IMG/VR virus record: IMGVR_UViG_3300020471_000299 | Coordinates: 1-20,019 of that record | DNA: 20,019 nucleotides | Direction: 5' to 3' (one strand) | Source of the DNA: a virus | Shown: one piece after another, positions 2,519-19,632 of the stretch | Position numbering within the stretch: the first letter of the stretch is position 1 | Layout of the letters: every line of letters begins with the position of its first letter | Translations under genes and position numbers: made by a program | Notes under the pieces: generated by a model | Told to the model about the DNA's origin: nothing | What the model saw: the letters and a program-made list of their open reading frames with translations, nothing else | The model's database searches: none

Positions 2519-5500
2519 TGGGTGGTGTAGTTAAAGATATTGCTGATGGTATCGGAGATGTTGTACGCGGAGTTGGTGATACAGTTGCTGATGTGTTACG
2601 CCCTGTGGGCGAAGCCATACTACGTAGTGATGAAGTAAAAACTGTTGTAAATGTGGCAGCGGTGGCAACAGGTAATTCGTGGGCTGTGCCTATAATTAAC
2701 GGTGCAGACGCTATAGATGAGGGGGCTGACCCTGAAGACGTACTAAAAACTATTGTTATATCTACTGTAGCCGCAGGTGCAGCAGACGCTGTAGGAGAGG
2801 TAGCTGCTGAAGCTTTAACAGACAAAGTGGGATCTACTGTAGCTAACTTTGTGGCTGATACAGGTGTGAATGTAGTAACAAACGGTGGTGACATAGGAGC
2901 TGCTGTTTTTGATGCAGGACTAAAAGGCTCTCAAATTGTTTCTAATACAACCAACACCATAGTGGACTCTTTGGGCATAGACACTTCTACTGATCTGGGT
3001 AAGTCGTTAGATAAGTCCCTAAAAACGGGTATATCAGCAGAGATTATGGGCGAGGACGGTGTAAAGGCTGCATCCATATCCGCTATATCAGACACAATTA
3101 TCAATCCTGTGCTAGAAAAAGGAGACGAACTAACTCCTGAAGCTCTTGGAGACGTATCTAAACTTGTTTCTACAGCGTTGGTTGCAGGTGCAAAGGGCGA
3201 GAATGTTTATGATGCTATAAATCAAGAGTTGGGCAACACAGCCACAGCTGACCTACGCGACCTTGTAAAGACAAAAGTTAAAGACTTTATAGACCCTGTA
3301 GAAGAACTGCCTATGGATACAGGAGAGTTCTTAACTGAAGCAGTGTTACCTGATGCAGAGACACTAGATAAGTTTAAGGACAAACCAGATACAAGCGTCA
3401 CAGAAAAAGATCTACCTTATTCACCACAAAACTTACAATCTGATTTTATATCAGATGAGGTAAGACAAGAACTACTAGGCACTACAGGCATAGAACTAGG
3501 AAAGTCTTCAGATATAGCTAGACTTATAGATGAATATGAAAAGAGGACAGGCACTACTGGTGAGTTTTTAAAAACAGCAAGCTTACCCGATGTAGAAAAA
3601 TTTAAAAAAGCCTTATCTGAAGCAGAAATATTATACGATCCAAAAACTTTTAAAGGACCCACAGGAGCAGGTATAGGACCTGAAACGACCGATGATGATT
3701 TTAAGAGTCAATTGGCAGGTATACTAGGAGAAGAAACTCCCAAGGTAAGTGAAGTAAGTAAAAGAATAATAGATGACGCAAAGAAGAATCTAGCAGGGTT
3801 TGGTTTTAGTGTGTCTTCAGGAACTTTAGAAGCTATTGCATTGCAAGTAGAAGGCACTGCAAATATTGGCGATGCGACTGTAAATAAATTTAGAGAACTA
3901 TTCGATAAAGACCCTACCAGATTTCTTAGAGATAAAACAGGTAACGTGGTTGCTTGGTTAGACGGTGCAAGTAAAGACCAAAAAGAAAAAATTAGTGGAG
4001 ATTTACTAAGAAGAAGGCGTGATGCTTTACCTGCTGAAGGTATGGAATTTACCACAGCCCTTCCTGGAGGTGAAAAAGCGTTAGATATGAAAGGGAGACC
4101 TTATGGCACGGACAAGTTTGCCACATTTTTAAACGCTTCTGAAGAGTTTGGTGATGTATTTACAGATGTGACAGTTCTTTTTTTAACTGGGCCTATATTA
4201 GGACCTGCGATAACTACCGCCCTTGGTGTAGCTGAAGGACAGGCAGATTCATCACGAAGGTTAGATCAAGAAATACAAAAAGCGATTGATGATGGAACGT
4301 TAGCAGAAAATGTGGGGTGGCAGACCATGTTAGCTGACGCTAAAGGAAACACTTTTGAAGAGAAATCAAAAAATGCCAAAGAAGCTCTGAAGAAACAATT
4401 TTTTAAATACACTCTAGCAGCTGGTGGTTTAGAAGCCGTTGGAGATCTCGTGACTGCAAAGGCAGCTCTTGGGACTTTAAATGTAAAAACCATTGGTGAT
4501 TTGTATACTAAACTAACTCCCAAACAACGAAAAGCCATAGGAATACCTGTAAATATAACTGCAGCGACTGGGGTTGGTGGACTTACCGAAGCAGGTCAAA
4601 CAGCAATAACTGAAAAAGCTTTGAGAGATTTTGGCATCTATCCAAAAACAGAAACTGGAGCATCATTTCTTTTAGGTGCAGCAGGGCAGGGTGGAGCTGT
4701 ATCGGTAGCTAACACTTTAAGTGGCATAAATGATGCGTTAACATCAAAGTATGAAAAAGGCACGTTAAGTTTAGAAGACAGAAATTACGTAGAGAATGAG
4801 ATACTAGCCCCTGAAGGTGAGTTTGTAGGCACTCCAACTGCGCCAGTCAGTGTGACAGAAACCGCACAAGTTGATACTGTGAGTAAAGATATATCAGCCG
4901 CAGACAAAGAGGCTTGGATACGTACCATAATAGGTGAGGCTGCAGGTGAGTCCGATGCAGGGCAGGCAGCAGTGGCGCACACTATACTAAACAGGTATAA
5001 AGATGGTGGTTTTGGAGATACCTTAACAAAAGTTGTAAAAGCTCCATATCAGTTCTCCACCTATAATAGTTTAGATCAAGGTGGTAACACGTTACACCAA
5101 AAGAGTAAAAGTAGTCCTGAGTACAAAAGAGCTGAAAAACTTGTAAATGACATACTAAAAGGTAAAGTCAAAGACCCTACAGAGGGAGCTACGCACTACT
5201 GGAACCCTGATGTGGCTAATCCATCTTGGGGCGACCAATTACTATCTGAACACAAAAGTGGTGGAACAAAGATAGATAGTCACATATTTGGAGGTAACAC
5301 AGGTTCTGCAGACACAATAGATGTAGCAGAAGTTTCTGACAACATAGATAAAAAACCTACAACTAAAGAATCTACAACTCCTACAATAACTGCCGATGTG
5401 TTAGATACAGGTCAGATAGATGCAGAACCAGAAACAGATATATCCGCAGAAGTAGTAGCTGATATACTAAACAAACCTACAAATTTTGTTACCGACTCTG

Positions 5501-9015: not shown

Positions 9016-12000
9016 ATGCCCACCTATGAAATATACAAAGATGACGGCACACCCATAAGAGTAGAGGGGCCTGAAGGCGCTAGTCTAAGAGATGTCATTG
9101 GTATATACCTACAAGAACAAGAAGACGCAGCTCGTGTTGAAAAAGCAAGAAAGATACAACGTGAAAAACCTGTAAGGCTTAGTCAATATCTAACAGAGTT
9201 TCCGAAAGGTGTTGGTCGTGGGGTAGCAGGTATAGTTGAAACAGGGCTTCTTGGAGGGGCAACGGTCCTTCCTGAATTTGCTGAAGCACCTGTACGAGAC
9301 GCAATTAAAACAGTTGGTGGGGGTATACAAGATTTATTGGCTCCTGCGCCAAACGTACAAGCTAAATTAGAAGATGATGAATTTCAGTTAGCAGAAGTGC
9401 CTGCTAAGTTTGGAGAAGCTTTAGGTTCTTTTGGTGGTATATTAGGCACGTCCCTATTTAACCCTTATTTAGGAGGCGCACTAGCTATTGGAGCAGGAGC
9501 AGGAGAAGCTAGCGAACGTGCAAGAAAGGCAGGTGCTACACAAGCTGAACGTAATATTGCTGCGCTAAAAGGGGCAGGTGTAGGTGTAACAGAATTACTA
9601 CCAATAGAAAGAGTTAGAAGAATTATAAAAACACTACCTGACTCTATATCTACAAAGTTTAAAGATAGAGCGATTGATTTGGGGTTTGCAACCACTGCGG
9701 AAGGCGCACAAGAAGCTCTTGCCGCTTCATTACAGAACGTAATTGAACAAGGGTACAATCCAGAACAGATACTACAGGAAGGCGTTGCTGAAGCCGCTGG
9801 ATATGGAGCAGGTGTAGGAGGAACAGTAGAACTTCTATTACAGTTCATAGGAGGACGTAAACGTAGGAGAACGGATGATGTTACAGAGACTGAAGACACA
9901 GGAAGTGGAGAAGGCGCTCCAGTTGATCCATCAAGCGAACAAAGAACAGAGGAACTTACCGATACCGCAAGAACTGGAGAAGCTGGAGCCGCTGGATTGG
10001 ATACTGCTGACACAACTGTTAGACTTGACGATGTGGGAAAAGGAACAAAAGACGATACATTAGACGCTAAAAAAGACCCCGTCAAACCAGAAGAAAAATA
10101 TGCAGGTGTTGATGGAGAAGCTCAAAACTTTTTATTAGCTCTTGAAGACGCACCAGATCTAATTAACGCAAAACCAAACGCCACTCAAAGGCAAATGTTA
10201 AAAAGAAATGGAGTTAAAAATTTTAAAGAACTAAAAGAAAAAGCGGAAAAAACTCCAGAAGCGCCTGTAGAGACACCTGTAGAAACACCTGTAGAAACAA
10301 AGAAACAAGAAGTATCCACAGAGCTAGCAAAAGCAGAAGAGGGGTTTGACGCTGCGTTTAGTGGGAAGAAGGAGGTTGCAGCTAAACCTGTTGAAGAGGT
10401 CGATAAAGAAATAACTTTGTCTTCTGCTGACAAAAGAGCGAAAGACACTTACAGGTTAAACTTAAAAAACCGTTATTATCTGGACCCAGACCAAAAATCA
10501 GAAGACTTAGATAAATTTAATAAAGCATTAAAAGTTGAAAAACCTGCTACCCCAGTCTTGTCTGAAGAAGATAAAAACAAGGTAGTAGATCTAATTCAAT
10601 CCAACCCAAAAAAAGGAACTGCGGATTATAAAGTAGCCCAAACCTTAAGTAAAGATCCCGTGGTAGAAAACGTGTTAGATAACGCGGCTTTTATGGTGGA
10701 GAAAGGTAGGCAGCTTGAGTTAAAAGATTTTCGTGGTAAAAAAATAGACGACATAAAAGTGCCTGAAGGACTGACTGCCAAACAAGTGCGGAAGTATATG
10801 AGAGAAGAAGTTCCTGTTACCGATGCTGGTTACGCATATTCTTATGCAGATGGAAACCAAGGAAAGGCTGCAGGGTCAAGAGTAAGTACATGGGTTAATA
10901 AAAATTTATCAAAAGAAGGTAGAGATTGGTTTAACTCTCGTGTCGAAGCCTATGGGAAAGAAAAAGACGAAAGCACAGAAGGTATATTAAGAGCTGAACG
11001 AAAAGATAAAGGTACGACTAGAACTGAAACAGCTACTGAAATTGAACCCGTAGCTCCTGGTGCAAAAGGCACAACTTTAGCCAAAGAAAAAAGACTTGAG
11101 GGTACAGGCGTTAAACCAAGCCTAGAAGGTGTAGATCCTAAAACAGGTGAACGTCTTGCTGATCCAATGACAGACATGGCAAGAAAGGAATTACGTTCGT
11201 TATTAGAAAAAACAATACCTGCCTTAAATAAAAAACGAGCAAAAACTGTAGATCGTAAAACAGGCAAGTTTAAAAAACCCATAAAATTTGATGAAAATAC
11301 CATAGAAAAACTTCTTCCTAAGTACTTACAGTTAGTAAGAGAGACCCCTGAACCATTTGATTTTGTTGCGGTTGAGGCTAGAAGAGAAAGAGCTGAAGAA
11401 AAAGCGAAAGAAGTGGCAGAAGTGACTGCTCGTAGATTATTATACGAAGAGGCAATAAAAGAAAAACCTGGGGATACAGATCCAGCTTTTACGCAGCAAG
11501 AAGTTAGCGAACTAACAGAAGAAATATTGCCAAAATATCAAACCTTGTATTTAGGTCATGACTCACAAAAACAAATAGACGAAACCTTGAAATACAAAGG
11601 GTTTGAAAAAAATGCAGAGCGTGTAAAGGAACTAAATTATTTAAACAACAGAGTTTACAAGAAGAAAGAACTAAGCACTGATGAGAGAAAAGCTCTAATA
11701 CGACATCTTGCTGAGAAACATGGGATTCTCAAAACTAAAGATGAAATAGATCAGGTTAAGGAGTTAACAGGAGATATTACTTTTGGAGATGAAAATTTAG
11801 ACGTAGGACGTGAAGAAGGGTTTGTAGAGACTAAGTTAGGTAAAGATGAAACAGGTAAAGAAGAAGTGCGAAAGTTAACAGACGTTGTGACTGGAATATA
11901 CAAGTTAGCCAGAAACGCTGTTATAGATATGACTTACACTCTTCCTGTGGAGTCTATGGGGGCGTTACGACAAGGTGATCTAACTACAGCTTTGAGAAGT

Positions 12001-15000
12001 TTAGCGGAGAACACCAACAATAGCTCAATAAAACGTATAGCTAATAAAATGGCAGATAAGGTGGGTACTACCAAAGTTGTTGTAACTCCTGATTTGTTTT
12101 TAGATGGAAACCCCTATGCGACTTTTAACCCCAAAACTAATACTATAGAGTTAGACTCTATATTAGGCATGAATACTCACGTGCTATTACATGAAATGAC
12201 TCACGCACTAACTTCCGCAGAGCTTTCTAATCCCTCTAGTCCGACCACAAAGCAGTTAAAGACTATATATGAAAAAGTCAAAGATCGGATAGACACAGCC
12301 TACGGCACAGAAAACCTTGATGATTTTGTAGCAGAAACCTTTAGTAACCCTGCATTTCAACAAAAGTTAGCAAGACTAAGTGTAGATGGTGAACCCATAA
12401 CAGCACTACAAAAATTTGCTAATATTATAGTTAACATAATAAGAAGAATAGCAGGATATTCTCCCATAGATAAAAATGCGTACACAGCGACAAGTGACAT
12501 AATAGAAAGTATGTTAGCTCCTGCTCCTGCTTATAGAGATGCAGGTAAATATAACATAGGACCTGCAGGTATATCAAAGCTACTTAGTGGCCTTGGAAAA
12601 CGTCAAGGTGATAAAGAATACCTTAATCCTCAACAACAAGAGGGTTTCTTAAATAAAGCAACTGAATTTTTACGTGACGCAGGTGTTGCTGGGGTAGCAA
12701 AGGATGCGTTTCTAGGTCTAGGTGATCTTCTTACCATAACAAAACTAGCAGAGAAAAATGGGTACGAGGGCATAGGAGACAGAGTAAATGAGTCCATATC
12801 CAAACAAAGAGGACTTATGGAGATAGCAGGAGAAGAGTTTGATAAGATAGCTAAAGAAATATCTGAGTGGTCAACTGCTAACCCTGAACAAAAGAAAATA
12901 TTAGACGACGTAATATATAACCTCAAATATGGGGCAACCATATACCAAGTTGATCCTACTTTAGATGCCGTAGACGCTGCAAGACGGTACAATATTAACT
13001 CAGAACAAATGGATGCTTGGGCTGAAAACCAAGAACAGTGGGCTAAATTAGGAGAGAGCGGACGTAATATATACAAAAAGATGAGAGATTATTACAAGAG
13101 AGAGTACAATAAGCTTTTAAATATATTAGACACGCAGTTAAAAGAGGCGGTTGGAGAAGAAGCAGCAACTAAAATAAAAAATAAACATTTTAGTAGAATA
13201 TTTGATGGTAAGATATTAGATGTATATTTTCCTTTAACTCGTGAAGGCGAGTACCTTGTGCAGTATAAACGGAAGCAACCTGAGAAAGAGGGCGATCCTT
13301 TTGTCACTGTAACCTTACAAACACAAAGCGGTGCAGAAGAACTTGTAAAATCTTTGAATGCAGATAAAGACGAGGTAGAAGAAGGTAGTGTAAGATATAT
13401 AGGCAAACAGGGGGTTAGTGAATTTATGAGAACTCCACCCCCTAACAGCTTTGTGTCTGACATAATGGAGGCAACGAGTAATATATCTAATGTGGTTGAA
13501 CAATCAGCATTTAAAGAAGAACTTGTGCGGTTATATATAAACACTCTACCAGAAACATCTTATGCTAAGTCTTTGGCAAAAAGAAAAGAAAGACCTGGGT
13601 TTATACCTGACTCTTTACACGCCTTTAGAGATAAGGGATTTACTTTATCTAGGCAGGTCATACAGCTTCAGAAAGGTAAAGAGATACGTGGGCTAGAAGC
13701 AGATGTGCGTAAAAGGATAAAAGAAATACAAAACGAACCCTTTAAAGAAAGAACTTTAGGGCAACGTATAGGTATATCTTCTGATACAGGGGTGTTACTA
13801 CCAAGTAGAATACGTGTGGGACAAGAGTTACTACGAAGAACAGAGTTTGCTAGAAAAGGACCTGACAGTAAAACTCACGAAGCCATAGCTAGAACAGCAA
13901 ACCAAACTGCCTTTGTATATACAATAGGTTTCAATGCTTCCTCTGCCATAGTGAACTTATCTCAGATACCTTTGATGGTATATCCTTTTATAGGTGCTGA
14001 ACATGGATATACAAGAAGTGCAGGTGCGTTAAGAGATGCTTATGCCGTAACAAGTAATGGTAAGGTAGATTTAACTTCCTATTACAACATAGGGCGTACA
14101 AAAGACGCAGATGGTAACGAAGTTTTAACGTACACTGTGCGAGATGAAGTGCCTAAATTGTTTTCTAAAAAACTTGGTAGAGGAAACAGAAAACTACAGG
14201 AGGGTGAAAAAAGAAAGATGGAGGCATTTGCCCCTCTTGTAAAAGAAGCAGATGCTCGTGGACAATTAACTAGATCATGGGTGTTAGAGTCATTGGGGTT
14301 GGGAGAAGCAGGTAGAGCTGAACGTATGAAAAATCTTAGTCCTGCTTCTAGACTTCATAATATAACTATGGGTTTATCTGCATATATGTTTAATACAGCT
14401 GAACGTCTTAACAGACAGTCAACACTGCTAGCCACATATGAACTAGCACTTAGAAAAGCTGTAGAGAAGAAAGAACCAAGAATTAAAAAAGAAAAATACG
14501 AGTTTCACAAAGTATTTAAGTTAGCACAAGAAAAGTACCCTGAACTCATAGATGCAGCTGTAAATAAATCTATAGAAGATACGCAAAGATTAAATGGAGG
14601 CACAGTTCTTGAAACAGCACCTAGGCTTGCACAACAAAGTTTTGGACGTGTGGCTATGATGTATAAAAGTTTTGGTCTCAGAATGTATACAACAATGATC
14701 CAAGCAGCGAGAGAAGTAGCAAACAAAGAACTTACTCCAGGAGAACGTTATATAGCCTTTAAGCAGTTAGCAGGTGTGCATGGATCAGCCTTGTTGTTCG
14801 CAGGGGTACATGGTCTGCCTCTATACGGAGCCATAGAGATGGCATTTAACATGCTACTATTAGAGGATGATGAAGATGATTTTGACACATTGGTGCGAAA
14901 ATCTGTTGGTGAAGAGTGGTTTAAAGGGGCAATAAATCTAGCTACAGGCATAGATATAGCCAGTAGAACTCGTTTGACAGGTTTATTGATTCAAGAAAAC

Positions 15001-15621
15001 AGATTTAACTCTGATGCCTCTTTAGAAGAAAACATATTGTTTTACATGGGAGGTCCTGCTTTTAGCACTGTGCAACGTTTTATAAGGGCAGGGAACGATA
15101 TAAAAGACGGTCAATTAGAGCGTGGAGTTGAAAACTTTATGCCAGCAGGTTTAACAAAGTTTTGGCAAGGAACGTTTGGGCGTATAGCTAGAGAAGGCTA
15201 CATGAGTAGACGAGGAGATGTTATATATGGAGATCCAAGTGCTGCAGAGTTGGCAGGAGTTGTATTTGGTTTTTCACCAGCAGAATATATAATTAAACAA
15301 GAAAGAAATAATCAAAAGAATAGAATAGATAAAAACGTAAGTAAGGAACGAACTAGAATACTAAAAAATCTTTACGTCGGTATGCGAACTTTTGATATGC
15401 CCATGTATGAAGCAGCTTTGGAAGACTTATTTGAATTTAACGAGAAGCACCCTCTTGCCGCTATAGTTCAAGAAACCGTGCATAGATCTATGGAAGGACA
15501 TAAACGAACCACTAAAAACATAGCACGGAACAACGGTTTGAATATATCTCCGTCCAACAGATACCTAATATTTTTTAATGAGCTTGGATATGATGATGAC
15601 TATAAATTTTTCTTCGCTTAG
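9016..15621 (+). CDS. Giant polyvalent/ejection protein with HExxH metallopeptidase-like domain
   Basis: This 2201-residue protein takes a third of the window. It opens with Y-E-I-Y-K-D-D-G-T-P, a short strand pair often seen at the N-terminus of large phage virion proteins. Hydrophobic Gly/Ala-rich segments follow at about 136-163 and 256-279. Residues 280-1000 are charged, low-complexity and mostly helical. A zincin-like motif, L-L-H-E-M-T-H, places H1059, E1060 and H1063; D-F-V-A-E-T-F-S-N-P downstream supplies a plausible third ligand, E1107. The C-terminal third has features I associate with 'large polyvalent protein' families of phages: N-A-S-S-A-I-V-N-L-S-Q-I-P (from 1640), S-F-G-R-V-A-M-M-Y-K-S-F (from 1875), a hydrophobic patch near 1922-1945, and G-G-P-A-F-S (from 2012). 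Such proteins are packaged and injected with DNA, and the nearest functional analogue is T7 gp16. Zinc and protease activity are predicted only. Confidence 0.85.
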   Translation: MPTYEIYKDDGTPIRVEGPEGASLRDVIGIYLQEQEDAARVEKARKIQREKPVRLSQYLTEFPKGVGRGVAGIVETGLLGGATVLPEFAEAPVRDAIKTVGGGIQDLLAPAPNVQAKLEDDEFQLAEVPAKFGEALGSFGGILGTSLFNPYLGGALAIGAGAGEASERARKAGATQAERNIAALKGAGVGVTELLPIERVRRIIKTLPDSISTKFKDRAIDLGFATTAEGAQEALAASLQNVIEQGYNPEQILQEGVAEAAGYGAGVGGTVELLLQFIGGRKRRRTDDVTETEDTGSGEGAPVDPSSEQRTEELTDTARTGEAGAAGLDTADTTVRLDDVGKGTKDDTLDAKKDPVKPEEKYAGVDGEAQNFLLALEDAPDLINAKPNATQRQMLKRNGVKNFKELKEKAEKTPEAPVETPVETPVETKKQEVSTELAKAEEGFDAAFSGKKEVAAKPVEEVDKEITLSSADKRAKDTYRLNLKNRYYLDPDQKSEDLDKFNKALKVEKPATPVLSEEDKNKVVDLIQSNPKKGTADYKVAQTLSKDPVVENVLDNAAFMVEKGRQLELKDFRGKKIDDIKVPEGLTAKQVRKYMREEVPVTDAGYAYSYADGNQGKAAGSRVSTWVNKNLSKEGRDWFNSRVEAYGKEKDESTEGILRAERKDKGTTRTETATEIEPVAPGAKGTTLAKEKRLEGTGVKPSLEGVDPKTGERLADPMTDMARKELRSLLEKTIPALNKKRAKTVDRKTGKFKKPIKFDENTIEKLLPKYLQLVRETPEPFDFVAVEARRERAEEKAKEVAEVTARRLLYEEAIKEKPGDTDPAFTQQEVSELTEEILPKYQTLYLGHDSQKQIDETLKYKGFEKNAERVKELNYLNNRVYKKKELSTDERKALIRHLAEKHGILKTKDEIDQVKELTGDITFGDENLDVGREEGFVETKLGKDETGKEEVRKLTDVVTGIYKLARNAVIDMTYTLPVESMGALRQGDLTTALRSLAENTNNSSIKRIANKMADKVGTTKVVVTPDLFLDGNPYATFNPKTNTIELDSILGMNTHVLLHEMTHALTSAELSNPSSPTTKQLKTIYEKVKDRIDTAYGTENLDDFVAETFSNPAFQQKLARLSVDGEPITALQKFANIIVNIIRRIAGYSPIDKNAYTATSDIIESMLAPAPAYRDAGKYNIGPAGISKLLSGLGKRQGDKEYLNPQQQEGFLNKATEFLRDAGVAGVAKDAFLGLGDLLTITKLAEKNGYEGIGDRVNESISKQRGLMEIAGEEFDKIAKEISEWSTANPEQKKILDDVIYNLKYGATIYQVDPTLDAVDAARRYNINSEQMDAWAENQEQWAKLGESGRNIYKKMRDYYKREYNKLLNILDTQLKEAVGEEAATKIKNKHFSRIFDGKILDVYFPLTREGEYLVQYKRKQPEKEGDPFVTVTLQTQSGAEELVKSLNADKDEVEEGSVRYIGKQGVSEFMRTPPPNSFVSDIMEATSNISNVVEQSAFKEELVRLYINTLPETSYAKSLAKRKERPGFIPDSLHAFRDKGFTLSRQVIQLQKGKEIRGLEADVRKRIKEIQNEPFKERTLGQRIGISSDTGVLLPSRIRVGQELLRRTEFARKGPDSKTHEAIARTANQTAFVYTIGFNASSAIVNLSQIPLMVYPFIGAEHGYTRSAGALRDAYAVTSNGKVDLTSYYNIGRTKDADGNEVLTYTVRDEVPKLFSKKLGRGNRKLQEGEKRKMEAFAPLVKEADARGQLTRSWVLESLGLGEAGRAERMKNLSPASRLHNITMGLSAYMFNTAERLNRQSTLLATYELALRKAVEKKEPRIKKEKYEFHKVFKLAQEKYPELIDAAVNKSIEDTQRLNGGTVLETAPRLAQQSFGRVAMMYKSFGLRMYTTMIQAAREVANKELTPGERYIAFKQLAGVHGSALLFAGVHGLPLYGAIEMAFNMLLLEDDEDDFDTLVRKSVGEEWFKGAINLATGIDIASRTRLTGLLIQENRFNSDASLEENILFYMGGPAFSTVQRFIRAGNDIKDGQLERGVENFMPAGLTKFWQGTFGRIAREGYMSRRGDVIYGDPSAAELAGVVFGFSPAEYIIKQERNNQKNRIDKNVSKERTRILKNLYVGMRTFDMPMYEAALEDLFEFNEKHPLAAIVQETVHRSMEGHKRTTKNIARNNGLNISPSNRYLIFFNELGYDDDYKFFFA
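10264..10299 (+). repeat. Three tandem 12-bp units, in frame
   Basis: Three nearly identical copies of CCTGTAGAAACA encode P-V-E-T three times (residues 417-428 of the 2201-aa protein), in the charged linker region. The first copy differs by one base (GAG for GAA). The unit is in frame, so copy number can vary without frameshift. Confidence 0.85.
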
Positions 15622-15696: not shown

Positions 15697-15933
15697 TCAC
15701 AAAATTCTCCAAATGCGAACACCTAATTTGTTATTCTCTACACGGACGTTTGTTTTTATATCCCAACCCTTTGTTTTTGCTATATTTTTTATTTGTCTTA
15801 CAGCTGCCTGGGTGTCTATGCACAGGATAAATACAGAGGAACTTGTTACCATGTTATCCCAATCTATCACAATACGAACGCCATCTGGGTTCAAATCGTC
15901 AGCTTTCAGGACTCCCTGCCTTAATTTCATCAT
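15697..15933 (-). CDS. Conserved small phage protein (78 aa), unknown function
   Basis: The 78-residue protein contains V-I-D-W-D-x-M, S-S-V-F-I-L-C-I-D-T, a helix with I-K-N-I-A-K-x-K-G-W, and a C-terminal R-V-E-N-x-K-L-G-V-R-I-W-R. This layout matches a small family that often follows replication genes in marine phages. I know of no assigned function. Its 5' end overlaps the primase-helicase gene by 35 bases in another frame. Two ATGs are adjacent (15933 and 15930), and the second gives the more usual M-K-L start. No good Shine-Dalgarno sequence is visible, so coupling to the upstream gene is likely. It is the last gene before the tandem terminators. An opposite-strand frame over the same bases has no such motifs. 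Confidence 0.75.
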   Translation of the reverse strand: MMKLRQGVLKADDLNPDGVRIVIDWDNMVTSSSVFILCIDTQAAVRQIKNIAKTKGWDIKTNVRVENNKLGVRIWRIL

Positions 15934-18643
15934 CTATCAAACAATCCACGGCTATAACGTCTGTAGGGGGTAGGTTCATGTGAGTGCCTTTGCTAAGACG
16001 TATCTTCATTCTTTTAGCATTTAACTTGTTTTTCAAATCACCAACAAACGCATTGTAGTTTATCTGCTGTTCCCCACACCATGCTTTCAATGGTTTAGGT
16101 ACGAGATAGGCACGTTTTAAATCTGTTTCGTAACGAGCCACGAGTTTACCTCTGGGTAGTGCTTCGGGTATAACTAAGTTAGATACATCACCCTCTTGTT
16201 TTCGTAGATCATCTGTGCTTTTTATCCATAACACGTTACTCCAATGTTCATGTATGTAGTCATTGAGTGTCTCCTCTACAGATATACTCATGTCCTCGAC
16301 CTGACGTTTGTTCTCTTTCAAACGTTCTATAGCCCAGTTAAACAGTTTTTTTGTATCATACTGTATTAATCCACAACGCTTGGCTAGCATGATACCAGTG
16401 AGAGTGCATGCCACAAGCACAGACCAATATCTATTTTCTGCTGTTAACCCTGCTTTCGAATCTACCTTTTCTTGTACCTGTCGTATTAGTTTTTGTACTT
16501 CTTCTAAGTTATCCATGACGTGTTTAATGTATACCTTGCCTGCGTGTCCGTAGTGGTTCTGCAAACGAGAACTAAATATGTCTGTTTCTTCTTTTGTCTT
16601 AAAGTACATTCTGCTTACACGACACTCCAGTATACGTTGTGCTTCAGCTTTCGGCATGGCTTTTATAATACTTATACGCTCTACCATACTTGTATTCCCT
16701 GTAGTGACAGCTAGTAACTTCCATGCCTCACCTCTGTGACGTTCTACGTTACTACTTGCTGACATACGTCCACGCTGTCTACCTCCTGTCAGTTGGTACG
16801 CTAGATTAGATAGTTCCTTACCTGAAGTATTTGTAAGTTCGTCCATATACATTGGCAAGTTATGGTATATTTCACCCCTGTTCATCTTGGTGTTATACGT
16901 GTCTCGCTCGTGCATTATCAAGTCTTCTGGATTACCCCACACAGATGCACCTGCTATCATAGCTGTGGTTTTACCCACACCTGACTCCTTGCTGTATATA
17001 TGCAGGGCTGAACAATTTATAGGTGAAAACTTCATCAATGGAGAACCAAACGATGTACCTAGAACAAACTGATGTAGTTCAAAGTCCTCTCTGTTGTAAA
17101 AATTTACTATATCTTTCCATTCCTCAAGTGTGCCTTTTGGTTCAAATGAAGGAAACAAGCTAGCCGTGGGCGTGGACGGAGGGTTAAACTTAATCTCTTT
17201 TAAAGTCACCTCTTCGCTACCCAAGACAAATCCTTTACATTCATCATCTGTCCAACCAAATTGTCTACGAGCTTCCTCCGCTACACTCTTTGCTTGTAGT
17301 TGTGTTACCCATGTTGTTGTGTATGCCATAATATCATCCATCCTTAATACAGCTATGCCCTGCATAGATAAGTTTTTTCTTAGTTCTTCTTTAGATGTTA
17401 CAGCAGTAAGAGGAACTGTAAACTCTCGTGTGCCATCTTTAGGTAGATGTAAACGCATGACTATTGCTTCTCCAACCTCTACGTCCATCACACGTTTGAC
17501 CACATAAAGATCGTTTTGGTATATCATCTTGTCTTCTATGTTGCCATCTTTATCCTTGAATCGCATATATACACCACCATTAACACCTCTAAAGTATGGC
17601 TCTGGATATAAAGGTACGTCTTTTGACAACGGAGCTTGCTTTATGCTTTTCCCTAAAACTATTGGAGATGTGATTTTATCCCAATGAGGACAGGCAGAGC
17701 AAGGTTCTGGGTCTTCTTCTGCAAACTTAGCGCACGTGTATGGACCCTTAATAAGTTCAACCTTCTCGTCTGTTAGTAGTTCGCTGTACTCTGGGTGTCT
17801 ATAAGACATCTTATGTACGGCTTTCTCTGAGTCATTACAAAACTTTGCTATAGATAATCCTGCCCTCCACAAGGGTTCGCTTATGTCTTGTTGGTTCTCT
17901 AGTATATTTTTTAGTTGTTCACACCCCACGCCCTTCATAGTCTTTGTCAATATATTCTTAAATCCAAACTCGGAGTTGTCTATCATGGCACGTTTCAAGG
18001 CGTTCTCTTCGTTGTCCACTTTTGTAGGCACACTGACACCTTGTTTACCAACAAGAGACGCAAACTCTTCAAACGCTACGTCACGGAACTCTCCGACACC
18101 AAAAAACCCTACGGGTTTCTGTGTGCCACGCTTGTGATTACGTGTGCCAGGAACTCTAAGTACACGGGCGGCATCCGCAGTTACACCATTATCTGCTGAC
18201 AAGTTATGCTGTATACACATATCCTTCAGTCCCTGGGCCACGGGTAGCCACTCACCATAGGACACACTCTCCGTAAGCACCCAGTATACATGCACTCCGT
18301 AACCAGAGTTTATCAACATGGGTTTAGGTAATCCTGTTTCTTTTATAAATCTCTTCAAGTCTAGAAAAGCTTCGTTCTGACTGCTGTACTCCTTACCAAC
18401 ACCACAGTCCAAGTCTAGGTAAAAAGAACTTAAGCTCTTTACATTTGTGACTTTTCTGTCGTTACTTGTTTTGAATGTGGCTAAACCGAAGTACGCATTA
18501 ACACCTCTAGCGTCCAACTCGTTAGCTTTTTCTATTACATCGTCTATAGTTGTGTGGAAGCTCTGTGCCTTTTTCTCACCAAGACCAAGCACAGAATAGT
18601 ATCCATCACCTAAAACTCTCTCTAAAAATTTTTTTGTTTCCAT
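15899..18643 (-). CDS. Primase-polymerase / DUF927-type helicase fusion
   Basis: This 914-residue protein likely primes and unwinds phage DNA. The N-terminal AEP-type (archaeo-eukaryotic primase) domain shows Y-L-D-L-D (D77, D79), S-G-Y-G-V-H-V-Y-W (H118) and D-A-A-R-V-L-R-V-P-G-T (D157), the expected metal- and nucleotide-binding set. A Cys cluster follows: Y-T-C-A-K-F (C304), then C-S-A-C-P-H-W (C315, C318), probably zinc-binding. The C-terminal half is a P-loop ATPase resembling DUF927/D5-like phage helicases: S-G-V-G-K-T-T (K558, T559), Walker B-like L-P-M-Y-M-D-E-L (D601, E602), G-G-R-Q-R-G-R (620-626) and T-T-G-N (N650). It ends in a region that may be DNA-binding. The ATG at 18643 is preferred over an in-frame TTG at 18676 because an AAGGTGGG site lies just upstream of it and the TTG sits inside the structured leader. 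It follows the SSB-like gene across an 83-nt gap. Confidence 0.88.
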   Translation of the reverse strand: METKKFLERVLGDGYYSVLGLGEKKAQSFHTTIDDVIEKANELDARGVNAYFGLATFKTSNDRKVTNVKSLSSFYLDLDCGVGKEYSSQNEAFLDLKRFIKETGLPKPMLINSGYGVHVYWVLTESVSYGEWLPVAQGLKDMCIQHNLSADNGVTADAARVLRVPGTRNHKRGTQKPVGFFGVGEFRDVAFEEFASLVGKQGVSVPTKVDNEENALKRAMIDNSEFGFKNILTKTMKGVGCEQLKNILENQQDISEPLWRAGLSIAKFCNDSEKAVHKMSYRHPEYSELLTDEKVELIKGPYTCAKFAEEDPEPCSACPHWDKITSPIVLGKSIKQAPLSKDVPLYPEPYFRGVNGGVYMRFKDKDGNIEDKMIYQNDLYVVKRVMDVEVGEAIVMRLHLPKDGTREFTVPLTAVTSKEELRKNLSMQGIAVLRMDDIMAYTTTWVTQLQAKSVAEEARRQFGWTDDECKGFVLGSEEVTLKEIKFNPPSTPTASLFPSFEPKGTLEEWKDIVNFYNREDFELHQFVLGTSFGSPLMKFSPINCSALHIYSKESGVGKTTAMIAGASVWGNPEDLIMHERDTYNTKMNRGEIYHNLPMYMDELTNTSGKELSNLAYQLTGGRQRGRMSASSNVERHRGEAWKLLAVTTGNTSMVERISIIKAMPKAEAQRILECRVSRMYFKTKEETDIFSSRLQNHYGHAGKVYIKHVMDNLEEVQKLIRQVQEKVDSKAGLTAENRYWSVLVACTLTGIMLAKRCGLIQYDTKKLFNWAIERLKENKRQVEDMSISVEETLNDYIHEHWSNVLWIKSTDDLRKQEGDVSNLVIPEALPRGKLVARYETDLKRAYLVPKPLKAWCGEQQINYNAFVGDLKNKLNAKRMKIRLSKGTHMNLPPTDVIAVDCLIDDEIKAGSPES

Positions 18644-18647
18644 TTTT

Positions 18648-18655
18648 CCCACCTT
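18648..18655 (-). promoter_or_regulatory. Ribosome-binding site of the primase-helicase gene
   Basis: On the - strand, AAGGTGGG ends four bases before the ATG at 18643. It fixes this start against the upstream in-frame TTG. The site begins one base after the 3' arm of the inverted-repeat structure, so access to it could depend on RNA folding. Confidence 0.6.
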
Positions 18656-18719
18656 GTGCCGAAGACACCACGACAAGATACGGCACGTTATCCTTTCGGC
18701 AAAAGCCTAGTCGTGGTGT
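18656..18719 (-). promoter_or_regulatory. Structured leader: nested, competing inverted repeats before the primase gene
   Basis: In the - strand transcript a 10-base perfect pair joins 18719-18710 (ACACCACGAC) with 18674-18665 (GTCGTGGTGT). A second, 7-base perfect pair joins 18701-18695 (TGCCGAA) with 18663-18657 (TTCGGCA), interleaved with the first in A-B-A'-B' order as in a pseudoknot. A third segment, 18686-18681 (GTGCCG), can instead pair with 18661-18656 (CGGCAC). No T run follows, so it is not a simple terminator. The element ends one base before the Shine-Dalgarno sequence of the primase-helicase and starts eight bases after the SSB-like stop codon. The pairings are seen in the sequence; a translational operator, RNA switch or DNA-level origin/operator is inference. 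Confidence 0.6.
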
Positions 18720-18726
18720 AGTTCTA

Positions 18727-19377
18727 TTAATCGTCCCAATCGTCAACGATAGAACTCAAGTCGTCATCAGCATCCTTGGTGGGAGGGGAGGACTTTTTAA
18801 CGACCTTCTTTGGTTCTGCCACCGCATCTTCAGTAAAAGGATTGTCTTCAGCCTCATTGAACACAAACCCATCGGTTGCCTCGAAAGGATTTCTCTCTTC
18901 CACAGGCACATACTTTACAACCTGCACAGCTCTCAAACGTAACGACACGTTCTGCTTGCCACCCATGTCATATGGATAAAACTGTACAGCTATATTTACT
19001 GTGCTACCTGTTGTTAACAAAAAATCATCTGGTAGCCTGTTACCCTTGGCATCAACTTGTAAAGGCTTTTGAGTTTTTACGCTTTTATACATGCCTTTAA
19101 GAGTTGCCTTGTAGGTGAACATACCATCATCGTCTTTGACAAATTTACGCTCTAATTTATCTGCCCACTTCTCTTTCTTGTTGGCTTGGTAACTCCGTGA
19201 CATAGCAGTAAACAATGCCTTTGCAGTATCATTATCCATACGAAACTGTATAGAGAACTCTGCGTTTGGGGCAGTGGGTTCACACGTCACGGATCGACCT
19301 TCGTTATTATCAAAATGATAAGTTGTGTTTATTTTAGGCCACAAAGCCTCTACGTTTTTTATAATATATTGTTCCAT
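18727..19377 (-). CDS. Single-stranded DNA-binding protein, gp2.5-like
   Basis: This 216-residue protein is probably the phage SSB, coating ssDNA at the fork and recruiting partners. Residues 10-160 look like an OB-fold core: W-P-K-I-N-T-T-Y, then K-A-T-L-K-G, and G-S-T-V-N-I-A-V-Q-F-Y-P-Y followed by V-S-L-R-L-R-A-V-Q-V-V-K-Y-V-P. This pattern is shared with T7 gp2.5-like and related phage SSB families. The tail from 160 is disordered, Pro/Lys-rich near 187-200, and ends in D-D-D-L-S-S-I-V-D-D-W-D-D. Such an acidic, aromatic-containing tail is a hallmark of SSBs that bind polymerase and helicase. An AAGGAG Shine-Dalgarno sequence lies five bases before the ATG. Its place between an HTH gene and the primase-helicase supports the call. 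Fold assignment is by pattern only. Confidence 0.78.
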   Translation of the reverse strand: MEQYIIKNVEALWPKINTTYHFDNNEGRSVTCEPTAPNAEFSIQFRMDNDTAKALFTAMSRSYQANKKEKWADKLERKFVKDDDGMFTYKATLKGMYKSVKTQKPLQVDAKGNRLPDDFLLTTGSTVNIAVQFYPYDMGGKQNVSLRLRAVQVVKYVPVEERNPFEATDGFVFNEAEDNPFTEDAVAEPKKVVKKSSPPTKDADDDLSSIVDDWDD

Positions 19378-19382
19378 TTTCT

Positions 19383-19388
19383 CTCCTT
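19383..19388 (-). promoter_or_regulatory. Strong ribosome-binding site of the SSB-like gene
   Basis: On the - strand AAGGAG lies five bases upstream of the ATG at 19377, within an 18-base intergenic gap. It is the strongest site in the replication block, consistent with an SSB needed in stoichiometric amounts. Confidence 0.65.
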
Positions 19389-19394
19389 CTCTAT

Positions 19395-19422
19395 ATTATA
19401 AGTCTTCATCTAATTCATCCAA
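19395..19422 (-). promoter_or_regulatory. Possible internal promoter before the SSB-like gene
   Basis: A perfect TATAAT (19400-19395, - strand) overlaps the stop codon of the HTH gene. Sixteen bases upstream is TTGGAT (19422-19417), only a half match to TTGACA. Transcription would start just before the Shine-Dalgarno sequence, giving a very short leader. AT-rich coding sequence produces such boxes by chance, so this is tentative. Confidence 0.3.
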
Positions 19423-19632
19423 TAGGTCTTCGCCTACTGTTTCTTCACTACGTTTACTAGATACTTTAGTCAATGCGGTGGCTACATCACCAACACGAAA
19501 CCTATAAGTATTACCTATCTTTACATAAGTATCTTTAGGTATGTGGTTCTGACGCACCCAAGCACGAACAGTTGATACAGACACGCTAAAATGTTTAGCT
19601 ACGTCCTCTATTGGTACAAAAGGTTCATTCAT
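19396..19632 (-). CDS. Helix-turn-helix DNA-binding protein (excisionase/MerR-like fold)
   Basis: The 78-residue protein is a short winged helix-turn-helix. Its N-terminal pattern is V-P-I-E-D-V-A-K-H-F-S-V-S-V-S-T-V-R-A-W-V, then I-P-K-D-T-Y-V-K-I-G-N-T-Y-R-F-R-V-G-D-V. This is the classic HTH_17/excisionase layout: a recognition helix followed by a strand pair carrying Arg. It is about the usual length of that family. The last 13 residues are strongly acidic (G-E-D-L-L-D-E-L-D-E-D-L), which the HTH fold does not need. The ATG overlaps the upstream gene's stop (ATGA), and GAGGAAG precedes it. With no integrase in view, a role as an early transcription or replication regulator is more likely than prophage excision, but this rests on context only. 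Confidence 0.8.
   Translation of the reverse strand: MNEPFVPIEDVAKHFSVSVSTVRAWVRQNHIPKDTYVKIGNTYRFRVGDVATALTKVSSKRSEETVGEDLLDELDEDL

Follow-up and report, generated by a model that had tools for sequence, protein, structure and literature searches.

On the leftward transcript of a 20,019-nt stretch of viral DNA (hereafter the window), the gene of a ssDNA-binding protein (SSB) is followed by that of a primase-helicase, and interleaved inverted repeats fill much of the 83-nt gap between the SSB stop codon (18729-18727) and the primase ATG (18643-18641). What is encoded in this gap, and does it act on the translation of the primase? A preliminary description of the locus had proposed a pseudoknot or a bistable RNA switch at the ribosome-binding site, perhaps under the control of the SSB, or else an origin or operator at the DNA level. 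The three pairings on which it relied are all exact on the minus strand (10, 7 and 6 bp), and as evidence from this one sequence they are thin. The case for chance alone is mixed: perfect 10-bp inverted repeats with a spacer of 3-60 occur twice in the whole window against a mean of 1.6 in shuffled sequences, but in shuffles of the 83-nt gap such a repeat arises in only 0.18%, and its combination with an interleaved 6-bp helix in 0.02%. The folding energy is ordinary (z -1.36; 21 of 200 shuffles were equally good). It is conservation, not stability, that sets the element apart from random sequence.

The three-way junction in the SSB-primase gap

The minimum-energy fold of the gap is a three-way junction of the helices P1, P2 and P3, and six bases of the P3 loop (L3) can pair with the tail of the element in a pseudoknot that adjoins the Shine-Dalgarno (SD) sequence (Table 1). 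The helices listed in the preliminary description are real, but the P2 and P3 hairpins were overlooked and the structure is larger than had been supposed. An intrinsic terminator was considered and rejected: positions 18550-19450 hold no GC-rich hairpin with a U run, and P1 is followed by CUUCGG.

Table 1. Features of the SSB-primase locus (window coordinates; RNA elements in the order of the leftward transcript)
Feature	Position	Strand	Remarks
T7 gp2.5-like ssDNA-binding protein (SSB) gene	18727..19377	-	upstream of the element; phrog_112
P1, 5' arm, ACACCACGAC	18710..18719	-	7 nt past the SSB stop; minimum-energy fold; covaries class-wide
Junction J12, UA	18708..18709	-	invariant in the aligned class (T10, A11)
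P2 hairpin, GGC-UUUU-GCC	18698..18707 (18707-18705 with 18700-18698)	-	minimum-energy fold; covarying
Junction J23, GAA	18695..18697	-	start of the conserved GAAAA; G22, A23 and A24 invariant
P3 hairpin, AGGAUA/UAUCUU	18675..18694 (18694-18689 with 18680-18675)	-	covariation in lineage A
P3 loop, L3	18688-18681	-	
Pseudoknot 5' strand in L3, GUGCCG	18681..18686	-	'third segment' of the preliminary description; lineage A pairing, swap test
P1, 3' arm, GTCGTGGTGT	18665..18674	-	10-bp helix with the 5' arm; 100% paired in lineage A
Linker between P1 and pseudoknot 3' strand, CUU	18664-18662	-	
Pseudoknot 3' strand, CGGCAC	18656..18661	-	touches the SD; lineage A pairing, swap test
7-bp helix, TGCCGAA with TTCGGCA	18701-18695 with 18663-18657	-	present, not conserved
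SD, AAGG	18652..18655	-	AAGGTGGG to 18648; basis: sequence
Primase-helicase gene	15899..18643	-	presumed regulated gene; 914 aa; DUF927; phrog_25314, phrog_8841

The primase and SSB proteins served as queries to retrieve several hundred related viral loci. Among annotated phages, BLASTn found no relative; a protein search returned only primases at <=30% identity, and no relative of the window primase was confirmed in bacterial genomes. With a strict parser, the same junction was recovered in 87 distinct gap sequences (242 loci) out of 130 distinct upstream sequences. These comprise the window's own lineage, here lineage A, and other groups, in which the sequences of P1, P2 and P3 differ and the core is the same: P1, UA, a P2 with opening G and closing C, GAA(AA), P3, CU and P1'. 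One relative (L306) has a short gap before the primase without the element, and the gap of distant relatives (the freshwater L308-L310, and L279 and L281) holds a terminator-like hairpin followed by a U-rich stretch instead of the junction RNA.

Covariation in lineage A was assessed in 18 distinct sequences against a tree null of 300 simple simulations. The sequences were aligned by structural segments, because MAFFT on cores and tails misregistered P2. P1, P2, P3 and the helix between L3 and the tail are each paired in 95-100% of cells. P3 accumulated 14 double-change cells, a number that none of the 300 simulations reached, whereas the covariation of P1 is not significant in this null (18 sequences, 300 simulations) because P1 hardly varies within the lineage.

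Relationship to the int-alpA class

The window itself has no match in Rfam, even at E<=10, and none of the Rfam riboswitch covariance models matched the window or 15 diverse relatives. In the Rfam scan of these 15, a single match exceeded the threshold, namely RF02996 (int-alpA) in L304, exactly at the gap element. In a laxer scan, L304 and L286 scored 39.4 and 39.6 bits, above the RF02996 cut-off of 35.8 bits, while L280 (31.9 bits) and L302 (26.2 bits) fell below it; both matches above the cut-off coincide with the SSB-primase gap. Scans of bacterial genomes and viral contigs with DNA patterns for the core gave many matches in which P1 extended further. A covariance model (R1) was built from 60 bacterial and viral members of the class, none of them from lineage A. 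Its sole match in the window is the element (18718-18666; 33.4 bits, E=1.3e-7), which has the junction pattern of the class, P1-CUA-G(P2)C-GAAAA-P3-CU-G. R1 scores lineage A relatives at 27-44 bits and also matches, at about 1e-9 to 1e-11, the int-alpA loci of E. coli that follow an integrase gene (L564 and L565). In an alignment of 60 distinct sequences of the class, 94.9% of 975 cells are paired and 285 cells show double changes, compared with 80.5 (sd 8.6) in shuffles; structures slid along the same alignment pair in only 36-51%.

The window element is thus a structural homologue of int-alpA that lies outside the Rfam family as drawn. It shares with RF02996 the three-way junction, the CUAG...CGAAAAG...CCUG core, the length of P1 and a tail with an SD-like AAGG. 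However, P3 and its loop have diverged (GUGCCG instead of a CCUU-type loop), neither a hairpin at the SD nor a second SD copy is present in the tail, and SSB and primase genes flank the element in place of an integrase and an unknown gene. Rfam types RF02996 as 'Gene; sRNA', whereas its placement and coevolution in the present data point to an element acting in cis; a function of int-alpA was not found in the searchable literature. Inspection of the junction, which reads UA/GAAA/CU and contains no CUGAUGA, led us to drop the hammerhead and other known ribozymes. Upstream of the SSB gene, the window encodes a 78-aa HTH_17/MerR/excisionase-like protein (19396-19632, minus strand); HTH genes of the excisionase type may recall the alpA link of the RNA class.

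At E<=1e-4, the class was detected in 38 of 369 and 44 of 398 genomes in two random draws, and about 10% of the sampled Gammaproteobacteria/Pseudomonadota genomes carry it. In phages and bacteria alike it lies directly before start codons. Upstream neighbours are integrases in 16 of 41 loci scanned, and also include a Sak-type annealing protein, tail proteins and regulators. Many of the genes downstream in viral loci are replication-like (DUF1376 in 14 of 32, primase, KilA-N). In bacterial loci, the genes that follow integrase-linked int-alpA (L324-L443) encode proteins of about 150-370 aa with a Pfam match in only 2 of 42, and represent an unexplored set of regulated proteins. One viral contig (L506) carries two class members, of which one precedes a replication-like gene and the other lies between a Sak-type annealing protein gene and an HNH-type gene (4823-4887, plus strand, and 3018-3072, minus strand).

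The gene neighbourhoods bear on the proposal that the SSB controls translation of the primase. In this model, the gp2.5-like SSB would bind the pseudoknot and repress the downstream gene, much as gp32 of the phages T4 and RB69 represses through a structured leader (PMC535899). The SSB is indeed the neighbour in the marine phages, and the gene 32 operator resembles the window element in being a phage leader with a pseudoknot near the ribosome-binding site at an SSB locus. The gene 32 operator, however, precedes the SSB gene itself and acts autogenously, whereas the window element follows the SSB gene, targets the next one, and is built on a three-way junction that recurs without an SSB. Most class members have no nearby SSB (integrase, tail or other genes lie upstream), the class precedes many genes where no SSB is present, and in the primase lineage of L523 and L451, L523 has an HTH gene instead directly before the RNA and the primase. 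Repression by the SSB is therefore very improbable.

The pairing partners of the tail

The preliminary description built its pseudoknot on the 7-bp helix and saw in the third segment a competitor for the same tail. A swap test, in which tails were exchanged among class members and duplex energies compared in 2000 permutations, distinguishes the two partners. Native L3-tail pairs are stronger than swapped ones (z -9.1 overall, -8.1 in bacteria and -4.9 in phages; 0 of 2000 permutations), while the strands of the 7-bp helix reach only z -1.4 within bacteria and -0.5 within phages, their overall z of -4.3 reflecting differences between the groups. In lineage A, 107 of the 108 cells of the L3-tail helix are paired, G-U accounting for 7. 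Double changes occur in 4 cells, a number reached in 11 of 300 tree simulations, and 5 of 300 reached the covariation score. Matched changes are evident from loop/tail pairs such as GUGCCG/CGGCAC in the window, GUGUCA/UGACAC in L005 and UGCACC/GGUGUA in L061. For the 7-bp helix, with six pairs counted, 14 of 108 cells are mismatched in the same 18 distinct close relatives and not one change is compensatory. As the swap test favours L3, the tail's true partner is most likely the third segment (18686-18681) and not the 7-bp arm. A pseudoknot at the primase-helicase ribosome-binding site, formed at the RNA level, is thus upheld by the L3-tail coevolution and by G-U pairs in the helices, albeit through another helix than the one proposed. 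The strained 1-base linker that was thought to disfavour it applies to the 7-bp partner only, the L3-tail pseudoknot having a linker of 3 nt. The pseudoknot is not universal, since L3-tail pairing is absent from lineage C (about L130-L142 and L215-L253), where the junction is kept.

A bistable arrangement, in which tail positions 18663-18657 alternate between the 7-bp helix and the P3 loop, would be compatible with the window sequence, where both pairings are available at duplex energies of about -10.2 and -10.9 kcal/mol, and in a few relatives whose P3 loop is short (L450, L536) the tail is strongly complementary to CCGAAA. However, the unpaired cells without compensation and the lack of coevolution within groups speak against it, and CCGAAA is already fixed as junction core and CGG by its pairing with the P3 loop. 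We regard this arrangement as quite improbable.

The idea of a switch as such is plausible, although its supported targets differ from those originally named. With the tail divided into an SD part, comprising the 17 nt that precede the start codon, and a proximal part comprising the rest, L3 was found to coevolve with both in 70 sequences (proximal part z -13.0, SD part z -7.5), each significantly in bacteria and in viral loci other than SSB phages. A second set of 23 sequences from the random genome draws, largely but not wholly independent because a few near-identical sequences are common to the first (L569, L570, L598), gave z -7.1 and -6.0, respectively; the median distance from RNA to start codon in this bacterial set is 32 nt. 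In L600, for example, the loop UCCGCA faces GCGGA..GCGGA. Across the class, the case for two sites that compete for the P3 loop is strong. The SSB phages, including the window, have no second site (SD part z +1.2, with only 7 sequences long and distinct enough), and the window's own lineage appears to keep only the proximal target. In integrase-linked members, the SD tends to be drawn into a hairpin of its own (score 12.3, compared with 8.5 for shuffled sequences; 15 of 42 members reach 5% or better). Members with a long P3 loop that precede KilA-N or regulator genes (L461, L484, L504, L507, L518) have two overlapping loop-complementary sites in the tail (AGGCGGA and GGAGC), the SD included.

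Coevolution with the SD also counts against a role at the DNA level, as an origin, operator or recombination site, in which the RNA pairing would be incidental. Such a site might be expected from the adjoining replication genes, and from the integrase genes in bacteria. Yet the element is always in sense orientation, immediately ahead of a start codon, and P1, P2, P3 and the pseudoknot together contain 21 G-U pairs versus 6 non-pairs in lineage A. This tolerance of G-U favours RNA over DNA, and a DNA-level role is extremely improbable.

A putative gate on primase translation

Sequence comparison establishes a conserved three-way junction, a loop-tail pseudoknot, covariation at the RNA level and, in the whole class, a fixed position before the start codon. 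In the SSB-primase mRNA, the element is probably a cis-acting gate on translation of the primase-helicase. With junction and pseudoknot folded, the helix would reach as far as 18656, 12 nt before the AUG, and hinder loading of the 30S subunit on the SD, so that the primase would be made at a low, controlled rate relative to the SSB; unfolding would open the ribosome-binding site. SD-sequestering pseudoknots are known from riboswitches of the preQ1 and SAM-II types, in which a tail strand adjacent to the SD likewise pairs with an upstream loop and folding competes with ribosome access. The window element differs from these in its junction sequence and in matching no riboswitch model of Rfam. 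The likeliest opener in this genome would be a ribosome terminating on the SSB gene: among relatives the SSB stop codon precedes P1 by a median of 10 nt (range 6-33, n=85), and such short spacing could allow the terminating ribosome to open P1. As the specific trigger, ribosome coupling is nevertheless doubtful. Alternatively, the conserved junction may bind a protein or a small ligand that opens the gate. A mere physical block leaves the strong conservation of the junction bases unexplained.

Elsewhere in the class, the P3 loop is complementary to a proximal copy as well as to the SD region, which suggests that the loop exchanges between a decoy, which would leave the SD free, and the SD itself, which would then be blocked. 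Tentatively, int-alpA RNAs might serve phages and integrated elements generally as a translational switch, in which the loop trades decoy against SD and the junction senses a ligand, a protein or the state of the ribosome; the marine SSB-primase version would be a reduced, decoy-only form.

The RNA could instead be mainly an mRNA processing or stability element, or a separate small RNA, that separates the SSB and primase transcripts. Its listing as an sRNA in Rfam and its invariably intergenic position would fit, and in some relatives the same gap holds terminator-like hairpins. On the other hand, the loop coevolves with the SD region itself and the spacing between RNA and start codon is constant, both of which speak for translation in cis, and positions 18550-19450 of the window contain no promoter- or terminator-like site. 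Such a role is unlikely. Complementarity among loop, decoy and SD argues for a cis switch, and this triple match makes the role simple to test. The data thus offer int-alpA, listed as an sRNA, a testable function in the cis control of replication and other early genes, which would cover phages as well as integrated elements, and they extend the class to an abundant marine phage group missed by the Rfam model. As far as the searchable literature goes, the marine SSB-primase lineage is new as a diverged relative of int-alpA; the loop-tail pseudoknot supported by coevolution and the loop-decoy-SD complementarity are new in the same literature but may be partly known already.

Two further features of the window deserve mention. 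A perfect 10-bp stem of A+U (UUAUAAUAUA/UAUAUUAUAA; 19359-19401, minus strand) encloses the start codon and SD of the SSB gene in its loop; the stem is kept in near relatives and lost in others, its 3' arm is coding, and no compensatory change was seen. The second feature is a plus-strand gene (9016-15621) for a protein of 2201 aa, which carries a large polyvalent protein domain (LPD39) and shows DarB-like similarity.
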